Assembly (NCBI RefSeq): GCF_000585395.1
Contig: NZ_KK073875.1
Coordinates: 124,001 to 188,000, forward strand
Direction of reading: 5' to 3'
Source of the DNA: Saccharibacillus sacchari DSM 19268
Lineage (GTDB): Bacteria > Bacillota > Bacilli > Paenibacillales > Paenibacillaceae
DNA length: 64,000 nucleotides
The notes beneath the pieces were generated by a model, which did not search any database, had not been told where the DNA came from, and saw nothing but the letters and a program-made list of their open reading frames with translations. Of the stretch, positions 18,857 through 53,808 are shown in pieces. The position numbers were made by a program, and so were the translations under genes. Position 1 is the stretch's first letter. Every line of letters begins with the position of its first letter.

Positions 18857-19028
18857 GCGTGGGGCTGCGGGGGAATTCGTTTCGGTCGCGTGTTGTTTTT
18901 GAGAAATTTTATTATAGGTTATAAGGTGATTTCTCAAAACAAAGGCGAGCGCTTCACAGCATATGCTCCCGAAGTGCCTTTTCTTCGAAAAGCCTGTACT
19001 ACACGAACTCCCCCTCCGCCCAGCCACC
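18857..19028 (-). repeat. Repeat family 2, copy 1
   Basis: Inverted with respect to copies 2, 4 and 5. Outer stem: the GGGGCTGCGGGGGAATTCG region (18860-18880) with CGAACTCCCCC...CAGCC (19003-19025). Constant motif GGTCGCGTGTTG (18884-18895) and CAAAGGCGAGC (18940-18950) flank a perfect stem TTTTGAGAAAT / ATTTCTCAAAA (18897-18907 with 18929-18939). It also carries AGCATATGCTCCCGAAGTG and a CTTTTC-GAA-GAAAAG sub-hairpin. The whole segment lies between two terminators. Confidence 0.7.
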
Positions 19029-19049
19029 ATTTGCAAATGGGAGGAAGGT

Positions 19050-19083
19050 AAAAAAAAGAAGCCGGGGAATTGTCCCGGCTTCT
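19050..19083 (-). terminator. Intrinsic terminator downstream of hlyIII
   Basis: AGAAGCCGGG / CCCGGCTTCT (19057-19066 with 19074-19083), followed on the minus strand by TTTTTTTTACC. It lies between copies 1 and 2 of repeat family 2. Confidence 0.85.
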
Positions 19084-19102
19084 GAACTTGCAAAGAAGTC
19101 TA

Positions 19103-19316
19103 GCGTAACTGGAAGAAAGAAGGCGGAGAGAGAAATTCAGTGAAGGAATGGAATGTTCGCCTTTGAAATCGGGAAAATACAAATAAAATTTTCAATCCAT
19201 TTTCCCGATTTCAACACGCGACCTGAAGCATTTCGAAGAAATGCACTTCGGAAGCCTATGCTGGCAATTTCTCTCGCAGTCTTCTGTCTTCCCGCGTACA
19301 CGTAACTTTTTAGAGA
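19103..19316 (+). repeat. Repeat family 2, copy 2
   Basis: Constant motif TTCGCCTTTG (19156-19165), then a perfect 13-bp stem AAATCGGGAAAAT / ATTTTCCCGATTT (19166-19178 with 19199-19211), then CAACACGCGACC (19212-19223). The outer palindrome pairs the GGAGAGAGAAATT side with AATTTCTCTC. A sub-hairpin GCATTTC-GAA-GAAATGC followed by ACTTCGGAAGCCTATGCT lies on the right side here, while the equivalent is on the left in copy 5. Confidence 0.75.
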
Positions 19317-19324
19317 ATTAAGCT

Positions 19325-19966
19325 TCAAGGCAGCAAATACATCAGGATGCAGAAGAAATGAAGGATGCTGCCTGCAAGGACGAACAGATGCCAGACGGCG
19401 TGATGGTGAGGGAAACCTCGCCAGACGTAGAAGATCGTTCCTACGGTGTACATGAGGCCGCCCGCGACGAGCAGGTGGATGCCTTCGGCCGGGATGGCTT
19501 GAGTCAGCGCGCCCCACGCGAGTACGATCAGCCAGCCCATCAGGATATAGAATAGAGTCGACATGAACAGAAACTTTTTGACGAAAAAGGCTTTGAACGC
19601 GACGCCTCCGATTGCGATCGCCCAGACGATTCCGAACAAGGTCCAGCCGAGCGGTCCGCGGATCGCCGTCAGCATGAACGGCGTGTACGTGCCTGCAATA
19701 TACAAATAAATCGAGGAATGGTCCATGAACTCGAAGAAATCTTTCACTTTGCCTTCCCTGAAGCTGTGCACCAACGTTGAACTCATATATAGAAGAAGCA
19801 TCGTTACGCCGTACACGGTGAAGCTGACGACATGCCAGGCATTTCCTTTCAAGCTGGCAAAAACGATCAGCAGCACAAGTGCAGCAACGCTCAGTGCGGC
19901 TCCGATTCCGTGCGTGACCGCGTTGGCAACCTCTTCCCGACGGGAATACGTATGCGTGTTAGCCAT
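19325..19966 (-). CDS. Hemolysin III / TrhA family membrane protein
   Basis: 213 residues from ATG 19966, which follows GAGAGGG. Seven predicted membrane helices of the PAQR/hemolysin III family. Family motifs: YSRREEVANAVTHGIGAALSV, SSTLVHSF, FEFMDHSSIYLYIAGTYTPF and, near the end, FPHHHAVWHLFVLAGSILHFF (His cluster typical of the metal site). Related Bacillus protein YplQ; bacterial members (TrhA) influence membrane fluidity. The hemolysin name is historical. Confidence 0.9.
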   Translation of the reverse strand: MANTHTYSRREEVANAVTHGIGAALSVAALVLLIVFASLKGNAWHVVSFTVYGVTMLLLYMSSTLVHSFREGKVKDFFEFMDHSSIYLYIAGTYTPFMLTAIRGPLGWTLFGIVWAIAIGGVAFKAFFVKKFLFMSTLFYILMGWLIVLAWGALTQAIPAEGIHLLVAGGLMYTVGTIFYVWRGFPHHHAVWHLFVLAGSILHFFCILMYLLP

Positions 19967-20130
19967 ATGGCCATCCCTCTCTTTCTTCATTCAGATCTGT
20001 TTTCCAATTGTTTCTGCAAAACCTGTCCGTTTTCACAACAATTGATTTCATTATAAACGTTCGGACGGCGCTTTACCAATTACAAACGTCATCTTTTCAG
20101 GAGGAATTTCGGACATTTTTTTGTTTACAT

Positions 20131-20187
20131 AAAAAAAACAGGCAAACTGCGCGATCGGAATAAAGCTCCGCCGTCAGGTCGCCTGTC
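20131..20187 (-). terminator. Putative long-stem terminator after ftsY
   Basis: ACAGGC (20138-20143) pairs with GCCTGT (20181-20186); the minus strand continues with eight T. The ~37-nt interior can form an inner CGGA/TCCG stem. Confidence 0.6.
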
Positions 20188-20247
20188 TTGCTGCATAGGC
20201 CGCGTTCGAAATCAGGTTCGCGCGGCCCGTATCAGGATTATCTTTTT

Positions 20248-21267
20248 TTATTGCTCGGACGAATCAGATTCGCCTTCTTCGCCCTCAATCAGTTCCTCCT
20301 CGATCAGACCAGCGAACAAGGCATGTACGAACTGCTCCGAATCGAATTCTTGCAGGTCTTCCATTTTCTCGCCCAAACCGACCAGTTTAACGGGAATGTT
20401 CAGCTCTTGGCGGATCGCCACGACGATACCGCCTTTAGCCGTACCGTCGAGCTTGGTCAGCACGAGGCCGGTTACGCCGCTTTTCTCGCCGAATAGTTTG
20501 GCTTGGCTGAGCGCGTTCTGTCCGGTCGTCGCATCCAGCACCATCAATACTTCGTGCGGCGCGCCCGGAATTTCACGCTGGATAACCCGGAAGATTTTGT
20601 TCAGCTCGTCCATCAGATTACTCTTATTTTGCAGACGGCCTGCCGTATCGCAGATCAGGATATCCGCATTGCGCTGCTTGGCAGCCTGTACCGCATCGTA
20701 CATCACGGCTGCCGGGTCGGAACCCGGGCTTTGCTTGATGACTTCGACGCCTGTCCGCGTGCCCCATACTTCGAGCTGCTCAATCGCGCCCGCACGGAAC
20801 GTATCGCCTGCGGCAAGCAGTACCTTTTTGCCTTCGCTTTTAAACTTGTGCGCCAACTTGCCGATCGTTGTCGTCTTGCCTACGCCGTTGACGCCAACGA
20901 ACAAGATAACCGTCGGTCCTTCCTGGCTCATATTAAGCGAGTTGTCCTGTTCGCCGCGCAGCAATTCAACCAGCTTCTCGGACAGAACCGGACGCAGTTC
21001 GCTGGCATCGCTCAAGCGGCGCTTTTTCACTTCCGCACGCAGTTCGTCGATCAATCCCATTACGGTATTGACGCCGACGTCCGCACCGATCAGAATCTCT
21101 TCCAACTCTTCGTAAAACTCTTCGTCGATCTTGCGTCTGCGAACCATAAGGTTGGATACGTGCTCGACGAAGCCTTTGCGCGTTTTTTCCAGACCGTCTT
21201 TAAACTGCTTGGTCACCGCGTCCGTTTTGCCTGCGATGCTTTCTTTTAATTTACGAAAAAAACTCAT
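20248..21267 (-). CDS. ftsY: SRP receptor GTPase FtsY
   Basis: 339 residues, short acidic-free N-terminus typical of Gram-positives. N domain (MSFFRKLKESIAGKTDAV), G1 FVGVNGVGKTTTIGKLA, AAGDTFRAGAIEQLE (I-box), DTAGRLQNKSNLM, TKLDGTAKGGIV, VGLGEKMEDLQEF. Docks SRP-ribosome complexes at the membrane. Immediately downstream of smc, as in Bacillus. Confidence 0.97.
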   Translation of the reverse strand: MSFFRKLKESIAGKTDAVTKQFKDGLEKTRKGFVEHVSNLMVRRRKIDEEFYEELEEILIGADVGVNTVMGLIDELRAEVKKRRLSDASELRPVLSEKLVELLRGEQDNSLNMSQEGPTVILFVGVNGVGKTTTIGKLAHKFKSEGKKVLLAAGDTFRAGAIEQLEVWGTRTGVEVIKQSPGSDPAAVMYDAVQAAKQRNADILICDTAGRLQNKSNLMDELNKIFRVIQREIPGAPHEVLMVLDATTGQNALSQAKLFGEKSGVTGLVLTKLDGTAKGGIVVAIRQELNIPVKLVGLGEKMEDLQEFDSEQFVHALFAGLIEEELIEGEEGESDSSEQ

Positions 21268-21297
21268 GCTTCCCGTCCTCCAATCGTATATGAAACG

Positions 21298-24200
21298 TCA
21301 GGCAATCCCGACTTCCTCATCTTCCAAACGCACGGATACCAGTTTGGATACGCCGCCTTCTTCCATGGTCACGCCATACAGGACGTCGGCTTCTTCCATC
21401 GTGCCTTTGCGGTGCGTTACAACGATAAACTGTGTCTGCTCTGCAAATTCCCGCAAATATTGGGCGAAGCGCACCACGTTGGCCTCATCCAGCGCCGCTT
21501 CCACTTCGTCGAGCACGCAGAACGGAACAGGCTTCACGTGCAGAATCGCGAACAACAAAGCCATTGCCGTCAATGCGCGTTCGCCGCCGGAGAGCAGTTG
21601 CAGATTTTGCAGCTTTTTACCCGGAGGCTGGGCCACGATATCGATTCCGGTCTCCAGCAGGTTTTCCGGATCGATCAGTACCAGATCTGCGCGTCCGCCG
21701 CCGAACAGCTTGGAAAAGACCGTGCCAAACTGTCTGCGAATCGCATCAAACGTCGTTTTGAAGCGCTTGGACATCTCCTCGTCCATCTCGCGGATGACCA
21801 GATACAGCTTGGCCTTCGCTTCCATCAGATCATTTTTCTGCTCGTCCAGGAAGGTGTAACGCTCGCTGACGCGATCGTATTCTTCGATGGCGCCCAGATT
21901 CACTTCGCCGAGCAAGGTAATCTTGCGTTTGATTTCGCGAACATCAAGACGCGCCGATTCCGGATCTTCCGGCAACTCGTAACGCTGCCTCGCCAATTCG
22001 TAGCCGATTCCATATTCCTCGGTGAGCTTTTGCAGCGTATTCTCCAACTCCACGTCCAGACGGGTCGCCTGGATTTCGGTATGCCGGATATTTTCCTCGG
22101 CCGCCTTCAACTCGCTGCGCTGCTTGTGCGTCTCGCCTTCGCGTTCTTCCAGCTTGCGCTGGCGTTCCGCACGTTCGCCTCGCTTTTCCTCGAGACGTTC
22201 CTGCGTCACGCTTTTCAGGTCCTTGGCTTCTTGAAGTTCGCGCACGTGATTTTCCGCGTCCTTCCGGTTCGCCGCCAATTCCGCTTCCGCTCCGCGCAGC
22301 ATCTTCCGTCGGTCGGCTAGTTGGTTGGACACCGTTCCCGTTTCTTCACCCAGACGACTTAAGCGCTCTTCAAGCGAAGCCGTCTCCTGAACAAGACGGC
22401 TTTCGCGCACGCGAAGTTCAGTCAGATGGTCCTGAAGCTCCTCTTTGGCGGATTCGCTTGCTTTGCGCGCAAATTCGGCTGCTCCGATAGCTTGTCTTGT
22501 CGCGGCTTCTTCCGCTTCCAGCTCTTTAAGCTTTTCTTCCGCTTTTTTCCGACTTTCTCCGGCACTTTCCAGCTCTTCGTGATAACCCGAGCGTTCTTCG
22601 CCGTGCAGCGCGAATTGCTCGTTGACATGACGCAGGCCGTGTTCCGTCTGTTTCAATTCGCCGTCCAGCTGCTGTTGCTGCGCACGCAAGGAATCGCCGC
22701 GCTCGCGAAGCTCCGTCAAACGCTGCTCGCTGGCAACGGCCAGTTCGCCATTTTCACGTTCTTCGCGCGAAAGACGCGCAATCTCGCGTTCGCTTTCCTT
22801 GATCTCTCGCTCCAACTGTTCCAAAGCGCGCTTGCGCCCCAGCAAACTGCCGCCGCGTCGATTCTGGCTGCCGCCGGTCATCGAACCGCCGGCATTGACC
22901 ACGTCGCCCTCCAGCGTCACCACGCGGTAGCGATAGTTCAAACGCGAAGCGATACCGTTCGCATCTTCCAACGTTTCGGCAACGACCAGGCCGCCGAGCA
23001 GGCTCCCTACGATATCGGCATAACGCGCGTCGGCTTCCACCAGTTCGGCGCCGATCCCGACAAAGCCTTGCGCACCGGATGCGGCACGTTTGTCGCTCTC
23101 GGACATATGCCGAGGCCGAATCACGTCCAAGGGCAGGAAGGTCGCGCGACCGAGCTGCCGCTGTTTCAGATAGCCGATCGCCTTGCGCGATACGGCTTCA
23201 TTTTCCATGACAACATGTTGAAGCGAAGCACCCAGCGCCGTTTCGATCGCCGTCTCTACCTTTTGCGGCACCGTGATTAATTCCGCGACCGCGCCGTGCA
23301 CGCCTTCGAGTTGGTGATTTCTTGATGCCTTCAATACTTCTTTGACGCCGACCATAAAGCCTTCGAAGTCTTCCTGCATTTCTTGCATCGTATCGCGTCT
23401 GGAAACGAGCGCTTCGCGCTTTTGTTCCCACTTCCGGGCCGAAGCCGAGCTGTCGGACGCCGTTTTTTGCAGCGTATGCAGCTTCTCGCTTTCTTCGATA
23501 TACGAGCGGCGCAGTGCAGTAATATCCTCGGAAGCCTGATCCAATGCAGCTTTACGCTCCGCATGCTCCTGTTCAAGGCGTTTCTTCTCGGCTTCCCAAC
23601 GTCCGGATTCTTCGTCCACGCGGTTCATTCGCCGCATGACGCCTTCCTTTTGCTGATCGGCATATCGGATTTCGTTGCGAGTCTGCGCCATTTTGTTCAT
23701 CAGCTCAAGCAGTTCGCCTTTTAGCGTCTCTTCTTGTTCATGGCTGATGCCTTCCGTCACCCCCGTCAACTTGGCTTGTTCAGCCGACAGTTCGGTCTGC
23801 AAATGGGTCAGTTCCAATCGCGCCGCATCCAGCTTGTTTTGGACAAACAAGCTTTCCTGCTTGCGCTGATCGAAACGTTCGCCTTCATTCTCGATCGCTT
23901 CTTTCAACTGCTCGCGCGATTGCTCCAGATTGCGGCGGCGCTCTTCCAGCAGTTGAGCGTAGCCCTCCGACTTTTCGGACAGTTCGCTGTAACGAAGCAG
24001 ACGTCCCTGAAGCTCTTCGATTTCATTCTCTACCGCCCGAAGGGCCTGACGGTCGCTTTCAAGCGTCCGATCATGCTCGTCTACAATAGCGGCTAGCCGT
24101 TCACGCTGCCGTTCAAGCGCCGCCAGCTTTTCCGACGCAGCTGTCCAAGCCTCGTGAATCTCGCCGATTTGGTACACGAACAAAGAAATTTCCTTGTCTT

Positions 24201-24867
24201 TCAGTTCTTCCTTCAATTCCTTATAACGACGCGCTTTCTCGGCTTGCGCTTTCAGCGGGCCGATCTGATCTTCCAGCTCCGTGACCAGATCATGAATACG
24301 CAGCAAATTCTGCTCCGTATCGGCCAGCTTGCGGTTCGCTTCCTTTTTACGCGATTTATATTTAACGATGCCTGACGCTTCTTCGAAAATACCGCGGCGA
24401 TCTTCCGAACGGGTACTCAGAATTTCCTCGATCCGACCTTGCCCGATGATCGAGTAGGCCTCTTTACCGATGCCCGTATCCATGAATAACTCCGTGATAT
24501 CCTTCAAACGGCAAGGCTGACGGTTGATCAGATACTCGCTGTCTCCGCTGCGATGAACGCGTCTGGTAACCGTTACTTCGGAAAAATCCAGCGCCAACAC
24601 GTGGTCCGTATTATCGAGCGTCAGCGACACTTCGCCATAGTTGACGGCTTTGCGCGCATCGCTTCCGGCAAAAATGATATCTTCCATCTTTCCGCCGCGC
24701 AGGCTTTTCGCGCTTTGTTCACCCAATACCCAGCGAATACCGTCAGAGATATTACTCTTCCCGCTTCCGTTAGGGCCGACGACCGCGGTGATGCCGCGGA
24801 CGAATTCCATTTCGGTTTTGTCGGCGAAAGATTTGAATCCGGCGAGTTCGATCCTTTTCAGATACAT
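21298..24867 (-). CDS. smc: Chromosome segregation ATPase Smc
   Basis: 1189 residues, the expected length. Head N part with Walker A VGPNGSGKSNISDGIRWVLG; two long coiled coils (about 170-500 and 670-1010); hinge near 500-670 (EGVHGAVAELITV; GDVVNAGGSMTGGSQNRRGG); head C part with the ABC signature LQLLSGGERALTAMALLFAI and Walker B FCVLDEVEAALDEANV. Works with ScpA/ScpB, not encoded here, to compact and segregate the chromosome. Between rnc and ftsY, as usual. Confidence 0.98.
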   Translation of the reverse strand: MYLKRIELAGFKSFADKTEMEFVRGITAVVGPNGSGKSNISDGIRWVLGEQSAKSLRGGKMEDIIFAGSDARKAVNYGEVSLTLDNTDHVLALDFSEVTVTRRVHRSGDSEYLINRQPCRLKDITELFMDTGIGKEAYSIIGQGRIEEILSTRSEDRRGIFEEASGIVKYKSRKKEANRKLADTEQNLLRIHDLVTELEDQIGPLKAQAEKARRYKELKEELKDKEISLFVYQIGEIHEAWTAASEKLAALERQRERLAAIVDEHDRTLESDRQALRAVENEIEELQGRLLRYSELSEKSEGYAQLLEERRRNLEQSREQLKEAIENEGERFDQRKQESLFVQNKLDAARLELTHLQTELSAEQAKLTGVTEGISHEQEETLKGELLELMNKMAQTRNEIRYADQQKEGVMRRMNRVDEESGRWEAEKKRLEQEHAERKAALDQASEDITALRRSYIEESEKLHTLQKTASDSSASARKWEQKREALVSRRDTMQEMQEDFEGFMVGVKEVLKASRNHQLEGVHGAVAELITVPQKVETAIETALGASLQHVVMENEAVSRKAIGYLKQRQLGRATFLPLDVIRPRHMSESDKRAASGAQGFVGIGAELVEADARYADIVGSLLGGLVVAETLEDANGIASRLNYRYRVVTLEGDVVNAGGSMTGGSQNRRGGSLLGRKRALEQLEREIKESEREIARLSREERENGELAVASEQRLTELRERGDSLRAQQQQLDGELKQTEHGLRHVNEQFALHGEERSGYHEELESAGESRKKAEEKLKELEAEEAATRQAIGAAEFARKASESAKEELQDHLTELRVRESRLVQETASLEERLSRLGEETGTVSNQLADRRKMLRGAEAELAANRKDAENHVRELQEAKDLKSVTQERLEEKRGERAERQRKLEEREGETHKQRSELKAAEENIRHTEIQATRLDVELENTLQKLTEEYGIGYELARQRYELPEDPESARLDVREIKRKITLLGEVNLGAIEEYDRVSERYTFLDEQKNDLMEAKAKLYLVIREMDEEMSKRFKTTFDAIRRQFGTVFSKLFGGGRADLVLIDPENLLETGIDIVAQPPGKKLQNLQLLSGGERALTAMALLFAILHVKPVPFCVLDEVEAALDEANVVRFAQYLREFAEQTQFIVVTHRKGTMEEADVLYGVTMEEGGVSKLVSVRLEDEEVGIA

Positions 24868-24940
24868 GACCGGCGCTCACCTCCCTTTCTAGTGTTGATG
24901 CTTAGCTGGCTATAATTTTGATGCTTGGCTGGCTTGCTTA

Positions 24941-25035
24941 CTTGCTTCGATTAGATGTAAGTTTATGCCTGTCTGAATCGCACTTGAAACATGTGCGTTT
25001 CAGACAGGCATAAACCATGATTTAGGCGAAGCAAG
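24941..25035 (-). repeat. Repeat family 1, copy a (smc-rnc intergenic)
   Basis: Nested hairpin. Outer stem CTTGCTTCG / CGAAGCAAG (24941-24949 with 25027-25035); middle stem of 17 perfect bp (GTTTATGCCTGTCTGAA 24961-24977 with 24999-25015); inner stem CGCAC / GTGCG (24979-24983 with 24993-24997). Read on the minus strand, it shares ATCATGGTTTATG, TGAAACG and the TTACATCTAAT side with copies b and c. Possibly a structured RNA element in the rnc-smc transcript. Confidence 0.7.
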
Positions 25036-25049
25036 CTTCTACAACGCAA

Positions 25050-25118
25050 AAGAGCAAAAAGCGGCATAGGCTGATTCGGACGATTCCGACATAAAGCTTG
25101 CGGCCGCTCTTTGCTCTT
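25050..25118 (-). terminator. Long inverted repeat after rnc (possible terminator)
   Basis: AAGAGCAAAAAGCGGC (25050-25065) pairs with GCCGCTCTTTGCTCTT (25103-25118) with one mismatch; an inner TCGGA/TCCGA hairpin sits in the loop. It lies directly after the rnc stop. The T tract is short, so termination would be partial. Confidence 0.5.
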
Positions 25119-25135
25119 CACTTGTATGGCATGCT

Positions 25136-25825
25136 CTACAGTTTAAGCGTCTCCAGCGCCGCGGCCGCAGCTTGCTGCTCGGCTTCCTTCTTGGAACGTC
25201 CCGTTCCGCGGCCCAGGCTGCGTTCGCCCATATAGACTTCGGACACGAATTCCCGTTCATGCGCCGGACCGCGTTCTTCCACGATCCGATATTCCAGCAC
25301 GCCGAGATTATGGTGTTGGGTCAATTCCTGAAGTTCGGTCTTAAAGTCGCTCATTTGCAGTTTGCCGTCCCAGGCAACCTGCGGGAATACATAACGGTCC
25401 AGAAACCCCCGAACCGCTTCAAGCCCCTGGTCGAGATACAATGCCCCCACGAACGATTCAAATACGTCCGCAAGCAACGCAGGACGACTGCGTCCGCCTG
25501 TCAGCTCCTCGCCTTTGCCAAGCAATACGTAAGCACCGAAATTCAGCACCTCCGCGAACTTGACCAGCGAAGGCTCACACACGATAGCGGCGCGCAGCTT
25601 GGTCAACTCCCCTTCGGGACGGCCAGGGAAACGATTGTAGAGAAATTCCGACACCGTCAGCTCTAGTACCGCGTCGCCCAAAAATTCGAGCCGCTCATTA
25701 TCATGATGCTGACTGAACCGGTGTTCGTTGACATACGACGCATGCGTAAAAGCTTGTTTAAGCAGAGGCTTATCCGCAAACTGGATTCCTAGTTTGTGCT
25801 GCAGTTGTTTCAGATCTCCGCTCAA
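25136..25825 (-). CDS. rnc: Ribonuclease III
   Basis: 229 residues. Catalytic domain with the signature [21 protein letters not shown] and the second acidic cluster [17 protein letters not shown]-terminal double-stranded RNA-binding domain ([53 protein letters not shown]). Processes rRNA precursors and structured RNAs. Encoded between fabF and smc. Confidence 0.97.
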
Positions 25826-25837
25826 CGTTCCGGCTCC

Positions 25838-27082
25838 TTACGCTTCGAATTTTTTAAGAATGACGGAAGCGTTATGTCCGCCGAATCCGAACGAGTTGGA
25901 CATCACTACGTTCAAGTTCGCTTTGCGAGCCACGTTAGGTACGTAGTCGAGGTCGCACGCTTCATCCTGATTGTCGATATTGATTGTCGGTGCCATGATC
26001 TGGTGTTCCAGAGAAAGGGCACAAATTACGGCTTCCACCCCGCCGGCTGCGCCGAGCAAGTGCCCGGTCATGGATTTGGTAGAACTGACGGCAACTTTGC
26101 TTGCATGTTCGCCGAGCGCTTTTTTGACCGCAGTCGTTTCCGACTTGTCGCCCGCCGGAGTCGATGTGCCGTGAGCGTTGATGTAATCCAGATCTTCCGG
26201 TTGAAGACTCGCGCTTTTCAAAGCCATGGTCATGCAGCGAGCAGCGCCGTCCGGATCGGGATCGGTCATATGGTGCGCATCCGCGCTAAGGCCGTAACCG
26301 ACTACCTCCGCATAGATATGCGCGCCGCGAGCTTGGGCATGTTCCAGCGATTCCAATACGAATACGCCGGCGCCTTCGCCCATTACGAATCCGTCGCGAT
26401 CCTTGTCGAACGGACGGCTTGCCTGGGTCGGATCGTCATTGCGCGTGGACATCGCCCGCATTGCGCAGAATCCGGCCAGTCCCGTCGGACGAATCGTCGC
26501 TTCCGCGCCGCCGCAGATCATCGCATCGGCATCGCCGCGCGCGATCAGCTTGAACGAATCGCCGATCGAGTGCGTACCCGTGGCGCAAGCGGTCACAACC
26601 GATGTGTTCGGGCCTTTGGCACCCAGTTTGATCGATACGTCGCCGGAGCCCATGTTCGCGATCATCATCGGGATAAAGAACGGGCTGACCCGCTTCGGTC
26701 CCTTTTGCATCAAGATCGTGAACTGGTCTTCCCAAGTGCCCAGGCCGCCGATACCCGAACCGACGATGACGCCAATTCGTTCCGCTTCGATCGAATCGCC
26801 GATCTTCAATCCGCTGTCTTGCAGGGCTTGCGTAGAGGCTGCGTAAGCGAACTGCACATAGCGGTCCATCTTGCGCGCTTCCTTGCGTTCTACATAGTCT
26901 TCGGGATTGAAGTCGTGAATCTCCGCGGCAATCTGCGTCGGATACTCGCTGACGTCGAAGCTCTCGATTTTCGAGATCCCCGATTTGCCTGCGAGCAAAC
27001 TGTTCCAAAACGTTTCCACGTCCTTGCCGAGGGAAGTCACGACTCCCATACCGGTAACGACTACTCTATGTTGCTGCTCCAT
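25838..27082 (-). CDS. fabF: 3-oxoacyl-ACP synthase II
   Basis: 414 residues from ATG 27082, preceded by GAGGTGG; a GTG three codons earlier lies inside that site. Condensing enzyme that elongates acyl-ACP with malonyl-ACP. Active site Cys in [16 protein letters not shown], His in [12 protein letters not shown] and His in [16 protein letters not shown]-terminus [18 protein letters not shown]. Part of the fap regulon operon, though a hairpin separates it from acpP. Confidence 0.97.
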
Positions 27083-27152
27083 ATGGGCCACCTCTATATT
27101 TGCGAGTTCCCATTTAAAGGGAAGTCTTATTATTGTTCCATAATGTAGGAGA

Positions 27153-27648: not shown

Positions 27649-27651
27649 GGT

Positions 27652-46280: not shown

Positions 46281-46417
46281 ATTCATTCCTCCCTGCTAGT
46301 AGTGGTTGTACGATGGCTGCCACGTCGGCGAGCAAGCCCTTTCTCCCCCCATTTACCCAGAAAGCGACAGGTTGAGCAATCGAGCCCTGAAATTCGATTT
46401 TGGATGGTTCGAAAAAA

Positions 46418-46493: not shown

Positions 46494-46513
46494 AAGAAAA
46501 AAGGAGGTGCGAC

Positions 46514-46723
46514 GTGCAAACGCGAATCCGCGAGAAACGTACCGAGAGCGACATGACGCAGGAAGAATTGTCGGAACGACTGAATGTCTCCAGACAAACG
46601 ATCATTTCGCTGGAAAAAGGAAAGTATAAACCGTCGTTGATTTTGGCCCATAAGCTTTCGCAAATCTTTAACTGCTCGATCGAGGAATTATTCATTTTTG
46701 AAGGAGATGAGAATATTGAATGA
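46514..46723 (+). CDS. XRE-family helix-turn-helix regulator
   Basis: 69 residues from GTG 46514, 6 bp after AAGGAGGTG. Single Cro/C1 HTH: TRIREKRTESDMTQEELSERLNVSRQTIISLEKGKYKPSL, of the YgzD/YozG short-regulator type commonly encoded with small membrane proteins. The downstream gene overlaps its end by 8 bp. Confidence 0.92.
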   Translation: MQTRIREKRTESDMTQEELSERLNVSRQTIISLEKGKYKPSLILAHKLSQIFNCSIEELFIFEGDENIE

Positions 46724-47045
46724 ACTGATGATGCAAATGGCGGTACCCATGAATCTCGGAGGAATGATCGGACTATTCGGAGGATTGCTGCTGGGGATGC
46801 TGGGTTGGGGCTTCGGTCGCTACATGCAGCGTAAAAATCGCGGTCTGGATGAGCGCGCGGAAACGATTACGGCGCGCGCCAAAGCATTTTCTTGGAATCT
46901 GCTCATTCCTGCAATTATGTTGAGCTGGGTGCTTGTCACGCTGTTCGAAGGAATCGGATTGTCGTTCTTCGTCATGATGGCCCTGTTCGTGATCAGTCAG
47001 ATTGCTTACATTGCCGCGGCCGTTTACCAGAACGGACGAAATTAA
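46716..47045 (+). CDS. Small membrane protein cotranscribed with the XRE regulator
   Basis: About 109 residues from TTG 46716 (9 bp after GGAG); an ATG at 46707 or 46734 could also serve. Three hydrophobic helices: NLGGMIGLFGGLLLGMLGWGF, SWNLLIPAIMLSWVLVTLF, and FFVMMALFVISQIAYIAAAVY. No family recognised with certainty; XRE-plus-membrane-protein pairs are widespread in Firmicutes and may act as toxin-resistance or signalling modules. Confidence 0.8.
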   Translation: MNELMMQMAVPMNLGGMIGLFGGLLLGMLGWGFGRYMQRKNRGLDERAETITARAKAFSWNLLIPAIMLSWVLVTLFEGIGLSFFVMMALFVISQIAYIAAAVYQNGRN

Positions 47046-47087
47046 TCGATGACCCGAATCCCCCATGTTCCGCAAGCGAACATATTC

Positions 47088-47143
47088 AAGCGCCGTTTCT
47101 TCCGGATCGAGCAATCCGATCGGGAAGAAACGGCGCTTTTTAT
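47088..47143 (+). terminator. Intrinsic terminator after the XRE/membrane-protein operon
   Basis: AGCGCCGTTTCTTCC (47090-47104) pairs with GGAAGAAACGGCGCT (47123-47137) with GATCG/CGATC inside, followed by TTTTTATATTC. Confidence 0.88.
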
Positions 47144-47256
47144 ATTCATCTGCATAAGCGCGAATTTTAGGAACGAAACGGCAATTCCAAAAGAAAGCGT
47201 TATCGTGATACAATAAAGCGTTGAAATTATTCTGCACGGAATCGAGGTCGAGCCTT

Positions 47257-49275
47257 TTGAATATAGATCCAACTGCTCGAAATATCGGCGTTTTTGCTCA
47301 TATCGATGCCGGAAAAACAACGACAACCGAATACATGCTATACCTCAGCGGAAGTATCCGATCTCTCGGAAGCGTCGATGAAGGCACTACATCCACCGAT
47401 TCGTTGGACGTGGAACGCGAACGGGGCATTTCGGTGAAAGCCGCTTCCGCTTCTTTGAATTGGAAAGGTCATAAGATAAATCTGGTCGATACGCCGGGAC
47501 ACGCCGACTTTCTGGCCGAGGTCGAACGTTCGCTCGGCGTGATGGACGGAGCGGTATTGATCGTCTCCGCCGCCGAAGGCGTTCAGGCGCAGACCGAAGT
47601 GCTGTGGCAGGCGTTGAAATTGATGCGCATTCCGACCGTAATCTATATCAACAAACTCGACCGGATCGGGGCCTCGTTCGAACGTACCCTGAATGATATT
47701 CGTCGTCTGTTGTCTCCTTCCGCCCTGCCCATGCAGATGCCGCTGCATGCAGAGGACGAGTCCTTTTACGCGATTCGGGAGTTGTGGAAAACGGATGCCG
47801 GATCGGACGGTCGCCCGGCGAAGGAGCCGTACGACGCTTTTGAAAATAAGGAAAAAGAACAGTTTCGCGGCGCGGCGACCGAAATCATCGCCGAGTTCGA
47901 CGACGAGCTGATGCTTCGTTATATCGAAGGCGATATTCCGGACGAAGACGAGCTGACGCTGCTGCTCGTCAAGCATTCCGCTGCCGCTCAAATCTTCCCG
48001 GTCTGCTGCGGCTGCTCGCAAAAAGGAATCGGCATCACGGAGCTGCTGGACGCGATGCTGGCCTTTTTGCCTGCACCGCCGCCCAAGACGGAGCTGGCAG
48101 GCATCGTGTTCAAAATCGAACGCGAACGTTCCATGGGCCGCGCGGCTTGGGTGCGTCTGTACGGAGGCAATCTGCGCAACCGCGACATCGTCCGGCTGAA
48201 CGGTCATGAAGAAGAGCATAAAATCACGCAAATTCGAGTGCTGGACGGCCTCAAACGCATCGATGCGGGCGAGATCGGGGAAGGCGATATCGCGGCCGTC
48301 TACGGCCTGCCGGATGCTGCGATCGGAGATATCATCGGCGATCCCGTGCTTGTGCCGAAAACACCGGAAATGGCTGTTCCGCTGCTGACCGCACGCGTGC
48401 TGCCGGATAGCGAGGCCGATTATGCACGCACAGCCGAAGCCCTTCGGGAACTGACCGACGAAGATCCCCTGCTCGATCTCGCCTGGCTGCCGGAACTGCG
48501 CGAACTGCATGTCCGCATGATGGGCGCGATTCAGCTCGAAGTCTTATCCAGCATGCTGAAATCCCGCTTTGACCTGAACGTCGGCTTCGGCCCTCCGGCG
48601 GTCATTTATAAAGAGACTCCGGCAAAAGCCTGCGAAGGGCGCGTTGCCTATCTTATGCCGAAGCCCTGCTGGGCGATTCTGCATTTCACGATCGAACCCG
48701 GCGAACGCGGCAGCGGCTTGGTCTACCGCTCGCAAGCGCGCGCCGACGATATCTTGCCTGCTTATCAAAACGAAGTGGAGCGCCGCGTGCCCGAAGCTTT
48801 AAAGCAAGGGCTGCACGGTTGGGAAGTCACCGACCTGATCGTCACCCTGACCTACGGCCAACACCATGTCTGGCATACCCACCCGCTCGACTTCGTGATC
48901 GCCACGCCGATGGGCATCATGAACGGCTTGGCTTCAGGCGGTACCAAGCTGCTCGAACCGATCTTGCGCTTTCGAATCTCCGTTCCCGAAGAACACGCGG
49001 GCCGCGTACTCAGCGATCTCTCTCGCATGAGAGCCGAATTCACCTCCCCTTCAATAGAAGGCGAACGCTTTATCGTCGAGGGCACCGTCCCCGCTTCGAC
49101 TTCCATGGACTATTCGGCCGCGCTGCGCTCGTTCAGCGCCGGGAAAGGCGTAATGACCGCTTCTTTTGAGGGATATCGGGAAGCGCCCGAAGGCACGGAA
49201 GCGTCGAGAACCCGGAACGGAATCAACCCGCTTGATGAGGCGAAGTACATTTTGAGCGCGCGAAGCGCACTGTGA
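47257..49275 (+). CDS. Tet(M)-like ribosomal-protection / EF-G-type translational GTPase
   Basis: 672 residues from TTG 47257 (AGGTCGAG site); a TTG at 47221 would add 12 residues but lacks a site. G1 IGVFAHIDAGKTTTTEYML, G2 region GTTSTDSLDVERERGISVK, G3 DTPGHADF, G4 NKLDR. Then domains II-V as in EF-G, with a Tet(M)-like domain IV (LTYGQHHVWHTHPLDFVIATP). Length (~640 for Tet(M)) and divergence suggest a chromosomal relative, as found in many Bacillales; tetracycline resistance is only inferred. No mobile-element genes nearby, but repeat family 2 copies follow. Confidence 0.82.
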   Translation: MNIDPTARNIGVFAHIDAGKTTTTEYMLYLSGSIRSLGSVDEGTTSTDSLDVERERGISVKAASASLNWKGHKINLVDTPGHADFLAEVERSLGVMDGAVLIVSAAEGVQAQTEVLWQALKLMRIPTVIYINKLDRIGASFERTLNDIRRLLSPSALPMQMPLHAEDESFYAIRELWKTDAGSDGRPAKEPYDAFENKEKEQFRGAATEIIAEFDDELMLRYIEGDIPDEDELTLLLVKHSAAAQIFPVCCGCSQKGIGITELLDAMLAFLPAPPPKTELAGIVFKIERERSMGRAAWVRLYGGNLRNRDIVRLNGHEEEHKITQIRVLDGLKRIDAGEIGEGDIAAVYGLPDAAIGDIIGDPVLVPKTPEMAVPLLTARVLPDSEADYARTAEALRELTDEDPLLDLAWLPELRELHVRMMGAIQLEVLSSMLKSRFDLNVGFGPPAVIYKETPAKACEGRVAYLMPKPCWAILHFTIEPGERGSGLVYRSQARADDILPAYQNEVERRVPEALKQGLHGWEVTDLIVTLTYGQHHVWHTHPLDFVIATPMGIMNGLASGGTKLLEPILRFRISVPEEHAGRVLSDLSRMRAEFTSPSIEGERFIVEGTVPASTSMDYSAALRSFSAGKGVMTASFEGYREAPEGTEASRTRNGINPLDEAKYILSARSAL

Positions 49276-49333
49276 AACATGCGTTGCGCAAAGCGCACGC
49301 CGGCTCTTGATGTGGCGAACTTCGATTCGCCGG

Positions 49334-49476
49334 GAAGAGCGGGCGCTGCGGGAGAAATTCGTTCCGGTCGCGTGTTGAACTTGGGAAGTCGGATTGAATT
49401 TTTTTAAGGTGACTTCCCAAGTTCAAAGGCGAACACTTCGTTCCTTCACTGAATTTCTCCCTCCGCTTGGCGCTTC
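49334..49476 (-). repeat. Repeat family 2, copy 3
   Basis: Inverted orientation. Outer stem GAAGAGCG...CGGGAGAAATTC (49334-49360) with GAATTTCTCCC...GCGCTTC (49451-49476). Constant motif GGTCGCGTGTTG (49366-49377), perfect 13-bp stem AACTTGGGAAGTC / GACTTCCCAAGTT (49378-49390 with 49411-49423), CAAAGGCGAAC (49424-49434). The stem sequence differs from copies 1, 2, 4 and 5 but remains fully paired. Confidence 0.75.
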
Positions 49477-49506
49477 ACGCTGCACATTTTTTTATAATAA
49501 AATAAT

Positions 49507-49550
49507 AAAGAAGAAGCGTTTCCCTATACAGAGGGAAACGCTTCTTCTTT
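49507..49550. terminator. Perfect 19-bp bidirectional terminator
   Basis: AAAGAAGAAGCGTTTCCCT (49507-49525) and its exact reverse complement (49532-49550) around ATACAG. Serves the Tet(M)-like gene and the convergent MMPL gene. Confidence 0.88.
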
Positions 49551-49555
49551 ATGTT

Positions 49556-49585
49556 TTCTCTTCCCTAGTTATTGAGGGAAGAGAA
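49556..49585. terminator. Second hairpin in the same gap
   Basis: TTCTCTTCCCT (49556-49566) pairs with AGGGAAGAGAA (49575-49585). The flank lacks a long T run; it may be an auxiliary terminator. Confidence 0.6.
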
Positions 49586-49611
49586 TGTTACTTGCATGCG
49601 CCGAGCCCAGC

Positions 49612-49731
49612 GGAGGAGTTGCAGGAGCCGAAGAAGCGAAGCGCTCGCCTTTGAAATTGGATTCCCGCAACGCTTTTATCCAATCAGAGGGAATCCAATT
49701 GAAACAGCGATCGCAGGCCCTGCAACTCCGC
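49612..49731 (+). repeat. Repeat family 2, copy 4 (diverged)
   Basis: Constant motif GCTCGCCTTTGA (49642-49653), then a perfect 12-bp stem AATTGGATTCCC / GGGAATCCAATT (49655-49666 with 49689-49700), then TGAAACAGCGATCGC in place of TCAACACGCGACC. Outer perfect stem GGAGTTGCAGG / CCTGCAACTCC (49615-49625 with 49719-49729), unrelated in sequence to the outer stem of the other copies. Confidence 0.62.
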
Positions 49732-49765
49732 AGCGCCTTCGCCTTCGAAGTTACTTTTCAAAATC

Positions 49766-52700
49766 CTACTCCTTGCTGCCGCCCGCTCTTTCGGTGTCCC
49801 TCAAGAACGGCCACCAGTTGGCTTTGCCGAAAGTCTTCACCATAACCGGAACGAAGAACGGAAGCATGAACAGCGCATAAATCACCAGTCCCGCCAAAAC
49901 GACGGTTGCGATTTGCATCATCGAGAGAACGCCTGACGGAATCATCGAAGCGAATGTTCCGCTCAGGATCAGGACAGCCGACAAGATGACGGTGCCCATG
50001 CTGCGCATCGCTTGCACGATTGCTTCTCTCGGATCGAGATCGCGGTTTTCGTTGAAGCGATCCATCAGGAAGATGCTGTAATCGACGCCGAGCGCGATCA
50101 GCATGACGAAGCCGAAGAACGGCGTCGTCCAGGTGATGCCGGAGTATCCCAGCAAGTGCACGAAGATCGCTTCCGTTACCCCGATCGCGGCGTAATACGT
50201 CACGAACAGCGAAAGCATCAGGTAGAGCGGCATAATAATGGAACGAAGCAGCAAGATCAAGATGATCAGAATGCCGCCCATCATCAGATACACGGTTCGG
50301 TTATAGTCCGCATTGGATACGGTTTGCAGATCGGCGAAGGTGCTGGTTACGCCGCTGATCGCCACGTCGGCTTGTTCCAGCGCCGTGTCTTTCGTCCCGC
50401 GATCCACGGCCGCACGGATATTTTCCATGTTTGCCAACGCTTCGGCGCTATACGGGTTATCCGACAACACGACATCAAGCGTCATGATTTTGCGGTCTTT
50501 GGACATGTAGGTATCGAACACCTGTTGGAAGTCCTCATTCTCAAGAGCTTCCTGCGGCATGAACCAACCGCCAAGCTCCGAGTCTGAATTTTCCTGAAGC
50601 TGAGTCAAGTAATCCTGAGCCGATCCCAGACCGTCTCCGACTTGCTTCAGACCGTCCACGCTCTGATCAAGCCCGTCCGTTAATTGCGTTAACTGGCCGG
50701 ACAGATCCCGGAAACCTTGACCGATCTGTTCTTGACCGTCTTGCAGTTGGTCCAGACCATCAGTCAGTTCAGGAACCTGACCCACGATTTGACCTTGACC
50801 GTCTGCCGCTTGATTCAAGCCGCTTTGCAACTGTTCAATGCCCGCAATCAACTGATCGAAGCCTCCGGTCAACTGATTCTGACCGTCGAGCGCCTGAGCA
50901 TAACCTTGGTTGGCTTGTCCTACTCCTCCGGCAACTTGCGAGACCTGTCCTTGAATCTGGCCGAACGCTCCAGCCAATGCAGCCGTGCCTTGACCGGTCT
51001 GCGTCACCGTTCCGCGAATCGTCAGATAATCTTGATCCTGAAGCAGTTCCGGGAATTTTTGTTCCAAGCTGCCGAAGCTGCCTTGAACGCTTGCGAGCGC
51101 GCCGGAAACGGCGTTCAACTGATCCCCGATCTGGGACATGCCGCCGTCCAGCGCCGTCAAGCCCGTGCCGACCTGCTGATACCCTGCCAACAGCTGTGCG
51201 TGCGCGTCGGCAAGCTGCTGCGCGCTGGCTTTCATTTGAGCCAGGCCGGCTTGAAGATCGCCCGCGCCCGTCGCGCCGGAACGAATGCCGTCCTCGATCT
51301 GCGTCAGGCCGTCTCCGAGCTGCGTCACGCCGGCTTTCAGGTCTTCGGTTCCGCTGACGAGTTGATCCGCGCCGGAAGCCGCTTCTTCGATCTGCGGCGC
51401 GTTATCGCTCATTTGCTTGCTGGCGTCAGCCAGACCGTCTTGAATTTTGGTCAGACCGTCATTGGCTTCTCCGAGGCCGTCTTTCAATGTGCCGGCTTGA
51501 TCCGCCACGCTGAAGTCGTCCAGCGCTTCGCCTGTCGGACGGCTGGCACTGCGCACGCTGTCCACGCCGTTAACTTTCAGAACCTCGCGACTGATGCGTT
51601 CGGCAATTGCCACGTACTCCGCATTGTCCATGGCCTGATCGTTTTGGATCACGATCTTGGCCGGCATCGCCTGTCCGGCGCCGAAGCTGTCCGCAATAAT
51701 ATTGAAGCCTTGAACGGATTCGTAGTTCCCCGGAATCTCCTCAAGACTGTTGAACGACAGCTTGCCGCTCGAAGTAAGCAGGAACGGCAGCGATACGGCA
51801 AGCACGATCAGCATAGCCGCCCACGGGCGTTTGATCGAAAACTTGCCGGCCCAGCCCCAGAGGCGATTCTCGCTATGTCCCATCGCTTTTCGCGAAGGCC
51901 AGAACATTTTTTGTCCCAAAACAGCCATAAAGAACGGCACGATGGTCACCATGGCCAGCAGCATGATCGCGATACCGACTGCTACCGCCACCGCCGAACG
52001 ATAAAGCATAAATTGCGACAACCCGATAGCCGCAAAACCTACCAGTACGGCAATACCCGATACGATTACCGTGCGTCCGGCTGTTCGGTACGTTTCGATG
52101 ATCGCATCCCATTTGTTGTCCGTGTGTCCCATCTCTTCCTTGAACCGACTGATCAACAGAATACAATAGTCCGTTCCGATCCCGAACATGACCGCAACCA
52201 TGAAGATCTGCGTAAAGTTCGATAAAGGGAAGTCGAATCGGTCAACCAGGAACGATACGATGCTCTGCGAGACGATATAACTGAGTCCCACTGTAAGCAG
52301 CGGCACGAAAGGCGCTACCACCGAGCGGAACACCAATACCAGAATCAACAGAATGAAGACGACCGTAATATACTCCGACTTCTTCAGCCCTTCTTCCGAG
52401 CTGCGAACCGTGTCTTCGTTAATCAAAGACTGGCCGGTCAGATAATGCCCGACTTCATACGGAGCCAGCGTCGCATCCAGACCGCTTTGGACCTCTGCCG
52501 CTTCGCCTTCCGCGACTTCGGCAGTAAGCGAGACGAGAATCGTCTGTCCGTTTTCCGAAATCATCTGATCTTCCAGCTCCGGCTGGTCGAACGGACTCAA
52601 GATCGCGGTAACATGCAGATTTTCTTTGTCTTTTTCAATCGCGTCCACCGCTTGCTTGGCCTGTTCCTTCTCCTTGGCGGTCAACCCGTCGGGATTATGG

Positions 52701-52918
52701 AAAACGAGCGCTATCGTCGTTCCTTCCGCTCCCCCCTCTTGGGCCGCCAATTCCGACAGAATCGCCGAAGCCTCAGTGGACGTATAGCCTTCCGGAACAG
52801 CGATACCGCCTTTTTCCCGGACCAAATCCGACATGGACGGCGCAGTCACAAATAGTCCGACCGCCGCAACAAGCCAGATGACCAAGACGATCCATCTAGC
52901 TTTCAGTATGGTTCTCAT
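49766..52918 (-). CDS. MMPL/RND-family transporter with coiled-coil extracellular linker
   Basis: 1050 residues, 12 predicted membrane helices in two six-helix halves (about 15-330 and 860-1020) of the MMPL/YdgH type, with GTDYCILLISRFKEEM and GVDYSIFLMDRFNENRDL as RND-like transmembrane motifs. Between them lie ~300 residues of repeated heptad/undecad units (DGLTKIQDGL; QLGDGLTQIEDGI; GLDQLQDGQEQIGQG) like the YhgE/Pip extracellular coiled coil. Exports lipids or drugs. The start overlaps the MarR stop by 4 bp, so they are cotranscribed. Confidence 0.92.
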   Translation of the reverse strand: MRTILKARWIVLVIWLVAAVGLFVTAPSMSDLVREKGGIAVPEGYTSTEASAILSELAAQEGGAEGTTIALVFHNPDGLTAKEKEQAKQAVDAIEKDKENLHVTAILSPFDQPELEDQMISENGQTILVSLTAEVAEGEAAEVQSGLDATLAPYEVGHYLTGQSLINEDTVRSSEEGLKKSEYITVVFILLILVLVFRSVVAPFVPLLTVGLSYIVSQSIVSFLVDRFDFPLSNFTQIFMVAVMFGIGTDYCILLISRFKEEMGHTDNKWDAIIETYRTAGRTVIVSGIAVLVGFAAIGLSQFMLYRSAVAVAVGIAIMLLAMVTIVPFFMAVLGQKMFWPSRKAMGHSENRLWGWAGKFSIKRPWAAMLIVLAVSLPFLLTSSGKLSFNSLEEIPGNYESVQGFNIIADSFGAGQAMPAKIVIQNDQAMDNAEYVAIAERISREVLKVNGVDSVRSASRPTGEALDDFSVADQAGTLKDGLGEANDGLTKIQDGLADASKQMSDNAPQIEEAASGADQLVSGTEDLKAGVTQLGDGLTQIEDGIRSGATGAGDLQAGLAQMKASAQQLADAHAQLLAGYQQVGTGLTALDGGMSQIGDQLNAVSGALASVQGSFGSLEQKFPELLQDQDYLTIRGTVTQTGQGTAALAGAFGQIQGQVSQVAGGVGQANQGYAQALDGQNQLTGGFDQLIAGIEQLQSGLNQAADGQGQIVGQVPELTDGLDQLQDGQEQIGQGFRDLSGQLTQLTDGLDQSVDGLKQVGDGLGSAQDYLTQLQENSDSELGGWFMPQEALENEDFQQVFDTYMSKDRKIMTLDVVLSDNPYSAEALANMENIRAAVDRGTKDTALEQADVAISGVTSTFADLQTVSNADYNRTVYLMMGGILIILILLLRSIIMPLYLMLSLFVTYYAAIGVTEAIFVHLLGYSGITWTTPFFGFVMLIALGVDYSIFLMDRFNENRDLDPREAIVQAMRSMGTVILSAVLILSGTFASMIPSGVLSMMQIATVVLAGLVIYALFMLPFFVPVMVKTFGKANWWPFLRDTERAGGSKE

Positions 52919-53436
52919 TCTTTCTCTCTGCCTCCATCTTCGATGACCAGCTCGGCCAGCTTTTCAAATGCCGCCATGACCATCGAAATTTCTTTTTCTT
53001 CAAAATGGCTCAAATAACTGCCGACCGATTCCGAAATTCGCCGCTCCACCTGCTCGGCGATTTGCTGCCCGCGATCCGTGAGCGATAAATACACGGTTCG
53101 TCGATCTTCCTCGCTGCGCGTTCGTTCGATCAGTCCGCGATCCACCAATCGCGTGACGATCGCCGTAATCGAGCTTTTGACTACTTTGAACGTATCGGCC
53201 AGTTCAGACGATGTTCGCGGCCCGAACTGCATGATGTGCTGAAGCAAATAATACTGATCGTTCGTCAAATCTACCGGCATTTGTCTGCGCACGACCGAAC
53301 CCATCTCCCGTTCGATCGCCATCCACGAACCGAGGAACTGATTAATCAGCTTTTTCGTATCTTCATGCGGAAGCTCTTCGCTTTTGCGAGCCCGTTCGTC
53401 CACTGCATTCCCTCCTATCTTAATTTGGTTCTCCAA
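52915..53436 (-). CDS. MarR-family regulator of the MMPL transporter
   Basis: 173 residues. Winged helix: LTNDQYYLLQHIMQFGPRTSSELADTFKVVKSSITAIVTRLVDRGLIERTRSEEDRRTVYLSLTDRGQQ, split over DNA recognition helix and wing. The first ~25 residues are a charged extension. Probably represses its own operon, as YdgJ does for YdgH in Bacillus. ATGA overlap with the transporter gene. Confidence 0.93.
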   Translation of the reverse strand: MENQIKIGGNAVDERARKSEELPHEDTKKLINQFLGSWMAIEREMGSVVRRQMPVDLTNDQYYLLQHIMQFGPRTSSELADTFKVVKSSITAIVTRLVDRGLIERTRSEEDRRTVYLSLTDRGQQIAEQVERRISESVGSYLSHFEEKEISMVMAAFEKLAELVIEDGGREKE

Positions 53437-53553
53437 TCGAATTGTTCGATAATGAAACTATTCAATAATGAAACTATAAAACGTTTAGATTTCTCTGTCA
53501 ACTTGCTAAAAATTCCGATGTCTTTCATCTATATCAAATATTAAAAAAAGGGC

Positions 53554-53588
53554 GACAAAAAAGCCCTTTCCCCGATAGGAAAAGGACT
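53554..53588 (-). terminator. Terminator downstream of amidohydrolase and repeat copy 5
   Basis: Minus strand: CCTTTTCC pairs with GGAAAGG, then TTTTTT. It resembles the hairpin at 53828-53852 on the other side of repeat copy 5, as though one terminator had been duplicated or split. Confidence 0.72.
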
Positions 53589-53608
53589 TAAGATGCCGAA
53601 AAAACCTG

Positions 53609-53808
53609 ACGTAGCTGGAAACGAGAAGACGGAGAGAGAAATTCAGTGAAAGTGAAGACTTTCGAAGAAAGTCACTTCGGGAGCATATGCTTAGCGTTCG
53701 CCTTTGAAATCGAGAAAAACCCAATCAAAGTTTAAATCCATTTTCTCGATTTCAACACGCGACTGGAACGAATTTCTCTCGGAGTCTTCTCGTTTCCCGC
53801 TCTTACGT
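53609..53808 (+). repeat. Repeat family 2, copy 5
   Basis: Left arm ACGAGAAGAC...AGAGAGAAATTC pairs with GAATTTCTCTC...GTCTTCTCGT over the outer 35 nt. Sub-hairpin GACTTTC-GAA-GAAAGTC, then CACTTCGGGAGCATATGCT (identical to copy 1), then TTCGCCTTTG (53697-53706), perfect stem AAATCGAGAAAA / TTTTCTCGATTT (53707-53718 with 53741-53752), and CAACACGCGAC (53753-53763). The most complete copy. Confidence 0.78.

Follow-up and report, generated by a model that had tools for sequence, protein, structure and literature searches.

The palindromes that recur in a 64,000-nucleotide stretch of Saccharibacillus sacchari DSM 19268 (contig NZ_KK073875.1, positions 124,001 to 188,000; the whole stretch is called the window here) belong to a large, apparently undescribed family of folded repeats, present in tens to hundreds of copies per genome in many relatives of Paenibacillus. 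Each copy is a small (~120-280 bp) non-coding element in which nested stems of free sequence stand between constant mismatched motifs. In Saccharibacillus, the target of the element is an intrinsic terminator, and the stem-loop of that terminator is duplicated around it. These properties are probably best explained by a structured, mobile element resembling miniature inverted-repeat transposable elements (MITEs), served by a putative enzyme acting in trans and, in Saccharibacillus, inserted at terminators.

Read on the strand that carries CGCCTTTG, on which the anatomy is described here, a Saccharibacillus copy is enclosed by an outer stem whose arms take one of two forms, type I (GGAAGCGAGAAGAC-GGAG) or type II (GCGGAG-GGAG). 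Type I copies end in the inverted repeats GTGTCGAGAAAGTC and GACTTTCTCGACA, the kind of terminus by which a MITE is recognized. The outer stem is followed inward by a loop of GGA/GGA or GGA/GCA, another stem of free sequence and a GTGAA/GAAC loop with G·A mismatches, then by a mini-hairpin (module a only), a TCGC/GCGA segment, an asymmetric loop and a variable inner stem, which is closed in most copies by a loop of ~20 bases. The remaining constant motif in this genus is CT(TTG)/(CAA)CAC or CTTTGA/GAGACA. The interior is modular, with module a reading CAACACGCG and module b GAGACAGCG; beyond the Saccharibacillus clade the usual form is AACAGCGA, and one copy in the window (copy 4 below) comes close to it. 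A hairpin around GAA forms an optional module of ~40 bases that can lie on either side. Among variant copies, one of type I near 6779 in locus L094 has a different inner form (CGCCTTTG..CCGCTAATCG), and one near 7828 in L114 (minus strand) combines a type I left end with an interior whose orientation is opposite to that of the ends, as might result from recombination between the palindromic arms.

Five copies had been reported in a sequence-only reading of the window, and all five were found at the places given. Its account of constant motifs, a variable but paired inner stem and a GAA sub-hairpin was borne out on reading the copies, with some amendment. The flanking motifs that it assigned to every copy are general, except that copy 4 has GAAACAGCGATC in place of CAACACGCGAC; the GAA sub-hairpin exists in copies 1, 2 and 5 and is an optional module that copies 3 and 4 do not have; the outer palindrome, credited to four copies, appears in the folds of all five; and copy 5, correctly placed at 53609-53808, is longer, reaching from 53590 to 53829, where it is bounded by a duplicated terminator hairpin. 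The fold energy of each copy lies below those of all 200 dinucleotide shuffles (z of -4.4, -5.6, -4.6, -4.8 and -7.1 for copies 1 to 5). A covariance model, R3, built from an alignment of 28 diverse copies (A4), hits exactly these five on the CGCCTTTG strand, with E-values from 3e-29 to 4e-12; of its five further rows in the window, two are weak matches (E of 0.1 and 0.42) and the other three echo copies 4, 2 and 5 on the reverse strand. The copies and the hairpins that accompany them are as follows.

18857..19028, minus strand: copy 1, module a (CGCCTTTG..CAACACGCGAC at 18885-18947), type II arms, GAA module 5' of the core; R3 match 18865-18983
19058..19082, unstranded: terminator-like hairpin between copies 1 (minus) and 2 (plus), seen in the sequence
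19103..19316, plus strand: copy 2, module a at 19158-19222, type I arms, GAA module 3' of the core; R3 match 19129-19238
49334..49476, minus strand: copy 3, module a at 49367-49431, type II arms, no GAA module; R3 match 49346-49464
49507..49550, unstranded: terminator-like hairpin between copies 3 (minus) and 4 (plus), between convergent genes, seen in the sequence
49612..49733, plus strand: copy 4, CGCCTTTGA..GAAACAGCGATC type, resembling the form usual beyond the Saccharibacillus clade; R3 match 49612-49733
53564..53589, unstranded: left duplicated terminator stem-loop beside copy 5, a direct repeat where relatives have one stem-loop
53590..53829, plus strand: copy 5, module a at 53699-53763, type I arms, GAA module 5' of the core; R3 match 53631-53784
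53830..53854, unstranded: right duplicated terminator stem-loop beside copy 5, a direct repeat where relatives have one stem-loop

Copies that lie close together run minus then plus, with their 5' ends facing, as in copies 1/2 and 3/4; five such pairs are present in the motif listing, 1/2 among them. A terminator-like hairpin lies inside all three pairs that were read, namely 1/2, 3/4 and a pair at 775 kb of the S. sacchari genome (G000).

Copies of the family are numerous well beyond the window. In the 6.08-Mb genome of S. sacchari, CGCCTTTGA occurs 491 times, compared with 44 for its reversed control, and CGCCTTTG-N28..58-CAACACGCGAC occurs 75 times, compared with 0. R3 finds at least 150 copies in this genome and at least 150 in the closest relative (G015), as well as 111, 93, 48, 41, 19 and 10 copies in six genomes from outside the genus; per-genome counts with R3, and with a model from 45 Saccharibacillus copies (R1), are of the best 61, 9 or 150 matches scored. 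R3 is not independent of R1, since the alignment behind it, A4, had been fitted to the R1 structure. At E <=0.001, R1 matches 36 of 59 related genomes, from 18 of 35 genera, and finds none in the other 23, while R3 matches 41 of 398 Bacilli genomes, 38 of the same order and 3, weakly, elsewhere. The strict motif TCGCCTTTG-N-CAACAGCGA is present in 43 of 59 genomes of the bacterial family, with a total of 1 hit in controls. The exact pattern is found in 10 of 98 genomes (S. sacchari included), every one a Saccharibacillus (10 of 16), and across 84,980 species genomes in at least 101 stretches, of which 85 come from Saccharibacillus and the other 16 are isolated hits in unrelated taxa. These 16, assumed with two viral contigs to be chance, were left out of the anatomy and inner-stem counts, and the 16 were also excluded from the direct-repeat and long-element analyses. 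A family confined to the window, which would have undone the sequence-only reading, is contradicted by the hundreds of copies found in this genome and its relatives.

Viral contigs gave 71 motif hits, of which 23 are backed by R3 on the motif strand, and two contigs carry the exact pattern. The 23 R3-supported contigs (L325-L388) each carry a single copy, which in 13 lies no more than ~1 kb from the end of the contig; many of these contigs resemble one another in sequence, and copies in viral contigs perhaps sit at prophage borders. Local multiplication is also seen in another genus, where G039:C1:562718-563679 contains five near-identical tandem copies at a spacing of 223-226 bases and G039:C1:817547-818208 a three-copy cluster. 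A catalogued RNA would have explained the copies, and Rfam 15 has 0 matches at gathering score in the window. In E-value mode, 20 loci gave 2 rows (E of 0.029 and 0.59) and window positions 18800-19400 gave 13 rows (best E 0.052), all below gathering score; the ylbH row at E 0.052 (20.3 vs 50 bits) was taken for chance. A description of the family was not found in the literature, mostly open-access, and a plasmid search with one copy from another genus returned no match.

Sequence change with preserved pairing had been read as the mark of selected structure, and covariation exceeds 500 shuffles in all three alignments tested by pair counts with shuffles and slides. In A1 (45 module a copies), 99.4% of cells are paired and double changes occur at 17 of 36 pairs; the corresponding values are 96.1% and 11 of 30 in A2 (19 module b copies), and 97.5% and 32 of 36 in A4, where all four Watson-Crick types are found at 15 of 36 pairs. 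None of 500 shuffles equals A1, A2 or A4 in cells paired, double-change pairs or covariation score, although A4 leans towards the R1 structure because it was fitted to it. The constant mismatched loops are kept in the 28 A4 copies.

The strand that folds can be told from the imperfect pairs. A G·U pair on one strand reads as an A·C mismatch on its complement, and equal numbers of the two are expected from a process that treats the strands alike. Selection by motif gave 79 arm pairs from the family, with 47 G·U and 8 A·C (p 8e-8); an automatic subset of 26 pairs contains 12 and 3, and 15 pairs from the viral-collection copies contain 16 and 3; for Saccharibacillus inner stems the values are 24 and 11 (p 0.04). 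Alignment to the models gives 78 vs 5 for 61 copies outside the clade and 65 vs 17 for 65 Saccharibacillus copies, counts that lean to G·U since the models allow it and that are checked by the motif-selected, automatic and inner-stem counts. The excess of G·U over A·C identifies the CGCCTTTG strand as the folding one, whether the molecule is RNA or single-stranded DNA. The family has two features expected of a structured RNA, covariation above shuffles and one folding strand.

Insertion at terminators became evident from the flanks of Saccharibacillus copies. An initial scan for direct repeats that took in wide flanks gave a weak signal (score >=30 in 5 of 77 copies and 2 of 600 controls), and the strong result was obtained by anchoring on the outer arms: 41 of 67 type I copies have direct-repeat flanks above the 99% control level (17 of 2000 mismatched-flank controls), as do 11 of 60 type II copies (13 of 2000). 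The repeats are 11-47 bases long, mostly 19-29. Hairpins are formed by 36 of the 41 type I repeats; a T-run lies to the right in 20 of the 41 cases and an A-run to the left in 21. Identity spans 22-29 bases in 11 of them, asymmetric loops included, and because it extends through these loops, the repeats are direct and not inverted. The layout of repeat-bearing copies is A-run, hairpin, element, hairpin, T-run. Lengths between the repeats fall at 175-209 bases (31 copies), 233-240 (7 copies) and 255-276 (3 copies), copy 5 having 240. The comparison of occupied and empty sites in close strains, which the sequence-only reading had proposed, gave four empty orthologous sites, each with one stem-loop. 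Copy 5 is absent from its orthologous site in G015, and that site has one hairpin in G015, G012 and G010 alike; conversely, the S. sacchari counterparts of the G015 copies at 17814, 615888 and 695159 have a single hairpin. With hundreds of copies and insertion polymorphism relative to a close relative, the proposal of a scattered, intergenic, hairpin-like mobile element has held up.

Other candidate empty sites were rejected. The site of copy 1 in G015 is one, as the more distant L150 retains the adjoining sequence; the lack in G015 of copy 1 and the adjoining region upstream of a Sde182-like gene (window 18780-19040 vs L143) is probably a deletion. The sites at G015:C11 647826 and 569361 were set aside as well, since S. 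sacchari keeps only the outer ends there, the result of internal deletions of the palindrome.

Copies that have stayed in place differ in their interiors. Copy 2 is common to S. sacchari and G015, and at least four genomes besides S. sacchari (G015, G007, G012 and G010) have copy 4 at the orthologous site. Comparison of 800 kb of the S. sacchari genome with 800 kb of G015 yielded 30 orthologous pairs, including one chance coding hit (244660), and 7 further copies whose partner is absent or unclear. The inner stems are the same in 10 pairs, differ at 1-2 base pairs in 11 and at >=3 in 5, and the remaining 4 of 30 have the other inner module type within common outer arms. Stems differing at 1-2 base pairs show 8 double changes that remain Watson-Crick and 1 double change that breaks the pair, and of the one-sided changes 2 give G·U and 4 break the pair; pair counts from whole folds of orthologs were discarded as too noisy. 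Block replacement from other copies fits these stem changes better than stepwise change, and selection on the folded strand, visible as G·U over A·C, and block replacement both seem to act.

The orientation of copies to genes appears to favour RNA over single-stranded DNA. Outside the clade, 33 of 43 copies are sense to the upstream gene (p 0.0006; the set includes five loci, G001, G004, G005, G006 and G011, that are labelled Saccharibacillus), first counts of 34 of 45 and 28 vs 8 having been replaced when a duplicate locus (L272/L302) and a row from the Saccharibacillus clade (L271) were dropped. In co-directional contexts outside the clade, 27 copies are sense and 7 antisense. In Saccharibacillus, 54 of 77 copies are sense to the upstream gene (p 0.0005), in a set that retains at least three chance coding hits (A 152572, A 244660 and B 248812). 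The gene context there is convergent for 34 of the 77 and divergent for 5, and convergent context explains most of this bias.

On the favoured explanation of a mobile, MITE-like element, a Saccharibacillus copy inserts at an intrinsic-terminator stem-loop, which afterwards stands on both sides of it, as is seen in the repeat-bearing copies. A trans-acting enzyme may recognize the mismatched motifs in the folded single strand, whether single-stranded DNA or RNA, and this putative enzyme could cut its target at the two feet of the extruded hairpin. The layout suggests that transcripts of the flanking genes would cross the element and stop at the far hairpin, so that the element would turn into sequence of the 3' untranslated region (UTR) with termination kept. 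Selection on the folded strand would maintain the fold, while gene conversion among copies would swap inner modules and stems as blocks.

Several results weigh against this explanation. A significant flanking repeat is lacking in 26 of the 67 type I copies and in 49 of the 60 of type II, and target repeats were found in 0 of 56 copies outside the Saccharibacillus clade, for which reason insertion at terminators applies to Saccharibacillus only. No Y1_Tnp domain (PF01797) was found in the S. sacchari genome, other transposase and reverse transcriptase families not having been searched, and no autonomous long copy emerged from 43 left ends (in 1.6 Mb plus Saccharibacillus contig pieces). Four of the 43 lack a known core type, two lying within coding-like sequence and two being variant copies. 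Known insertion sequence (IS) ends, which would have refuted the sequence-only reading, were not detected via Y1_Tnp or long same-end copies, with no IS database searched. Co-directional contexts in Saccharibacillus have no sense bias (20 vs 18). A1 and A2 do not exceed shuffles in their number of pair types (93 and 476 of 500, respectively), and A1 has 143 double-change cells vs 9 G·U steps; the excess of double changes in A1 and the unremarkable pair types in A1 and A2 fit block replacement better than slow stepwise RNA selection.

This scarcity of one-sided changes in A1 (9 vs 143 double) is what would be expected of a DNA palindrome in which template switching during replication, or gene conversion, keeps the two arms alike, with covariation a by-product and no strand selected to fold. 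The 8 double Watson-Crick changes among the orthologous stems, against 2 one-sided ones giving G·U, 4 one-sided ones that break the pair and 1 broken double change, point the same way. Such a process predicts equal G·U and A·C, against observed ratios of 47:8, 78:5 and 65:17, and would not explain why constant mismatched loops persist in the 28 A4 copies; this reading is already disfavoured and we consider it very unlikely. It is highly improbable that the hairpins on the two sides are independent of each other, each the terminator of one of two convergent genes, with no target duplication: convergent is the commonest Saccharibacillus context (34 of 77), but 11 of 41 hairpin pairs are identical across 22-29 bases, loops included, the control level is reached by 41 of 67 real flanks and 17 of 2000 mismatched ones, and four empty orthologous sites have one hairpin.

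Two further readings share the fold and differ in what it is for. The element might be chiefly a functional UTR structure, a domesticated cis-acting RNA serving mRNA stability, double-strand nuclease processing or as a protein platform, with its dispersal incidental. The folding-strand bias and conserved unpaired motifs, the predominance outside the clade of copies sense to both neighbours (27 vs 7 antisense) and the shared position of copy 4 in five or more genomes speak for such an RNA, which nevertheless seems rather doubtful given that the neighbours in the window are unrelated genes (Pfam), that close relatives differ by presence/absence turnover and block replacement, and that pairs flank terminators in opposite orientation. 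A mobile hairpin of single-stranded DNA without an RNA role, like REP/RAYT or integron attC, would have one folding strand and conserved mismatches in free stems, as REP and attC do, and is compatible with the inner blocks that differ at occupied orthologous sites. We regard it as unlikely, since PF01797 is absent from the S. sacchari genome and was found in 1 of 16 congeners by a search that was positive for 5 of 14 control genomes, a whole-hairpin target duplication is unlike the known products of IS200/IS605 enzymes, and copies outside the clade have a sense bias to genes. Mobilization by a RAYT/IS200 enzyme in particular was rejected on the absence of PF01797 in this genome.

Among known systems, the element files as MITE-like. 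Its copies are short, dispersed and non-coding (175-276 bp between repeats in 41 copies, at least 150 copies), with terminal inverted repeats and a target duplication, the latter in Saccharibacillus only (41 of 67 type I and 11 of 60 type II copies vs 0 of 56 outside the clade). We know of no described family in which a whole stem-loop is the target duplication. Group IIC introns target intrinsic-terminator hairpins, a likeness in choice of target; the element differs in being only ~200 bp, in duplicating the target hairpin and in having no Rfam intron match. Integron attC sites keep structure with free sequence and are recognized on one strand through unpaired bases. The element resembles them in these respects, but its copies are dispersed singles or pairs, with no cassette arrays in the stretches seen, and its insertion entails target duplication.

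Several families of intergenic repeats offer closer parallels in form. Like the repeats described here, bcr1-bcr3 of the Bacillus cereus group are MITE-like and intergenic; they are often in UTRs, and copies pooled from the 18 bcr families fall within mRNAs in 84 of 165 and 62 of 155 cases (PMC3446304). They belong to another genus, and R3 gave just 3 weak matches outside its own order among 398 Bacilli genomes. The target site duplication of bcr1 is short, and we know of no whole-terminator duplication for bcr1-bcr3. Among streptococcal repeats, BOX is modular, like the present element, BOX, RUP and SPRITE are folded and transcribed with MITE features, and SPRITE is enriched at the 3' ends of convergent genes in Streptococcus pneumoniae (PMC3049150). 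The element differs from them in its freely varying stems, constant mismatched loops and duplication of an entire terminator stem-loop. REP and REPIN sequences are also imperfect, intergenic palindromes in numerous copies (PMC3733652), REPs being 20-40 bp with a GTAG or CGTC tag. Unlike REP/REPIN, the element inhabits a genome without Y1 transposase, and the associated RAYT domain was found in 1 of 16 genus genomes.

Tandem units like GCGTTGTGCAGAGCACACGCC follow an EF-G-like gene, on the left flank of an MMPL gene, in three relatives (L164, L165 and L167), and window positions 49281-49301 hold a single unit resembling these.

The element may, more tentatively, represent a new mobile class, working through a folded single strand (RNA or single-stranded DNA) and an enzyme that reads terminators as extruded hairpins and cuts at the feet of their stems. 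If so, the target duplication would equal a whole stem-loop, and, since insertion would keep termination and put the element in transcripts, dispersal and RNA function would reinforce each other. A complete terminator hairpin as target duplication would be a new target choice and a natural safe harbour for insertion. The family would add to the Paenibacillaceae a widespread structured element that Rfam 15 does not match, and would make two causes of covariation, folded-strand selection (G·U over A·C) and block replacement, separable in one natural system. Dense elements in 3' UTRs could also alter mRNA ends and genome annotation in a bacterial family that is used in agriculture.

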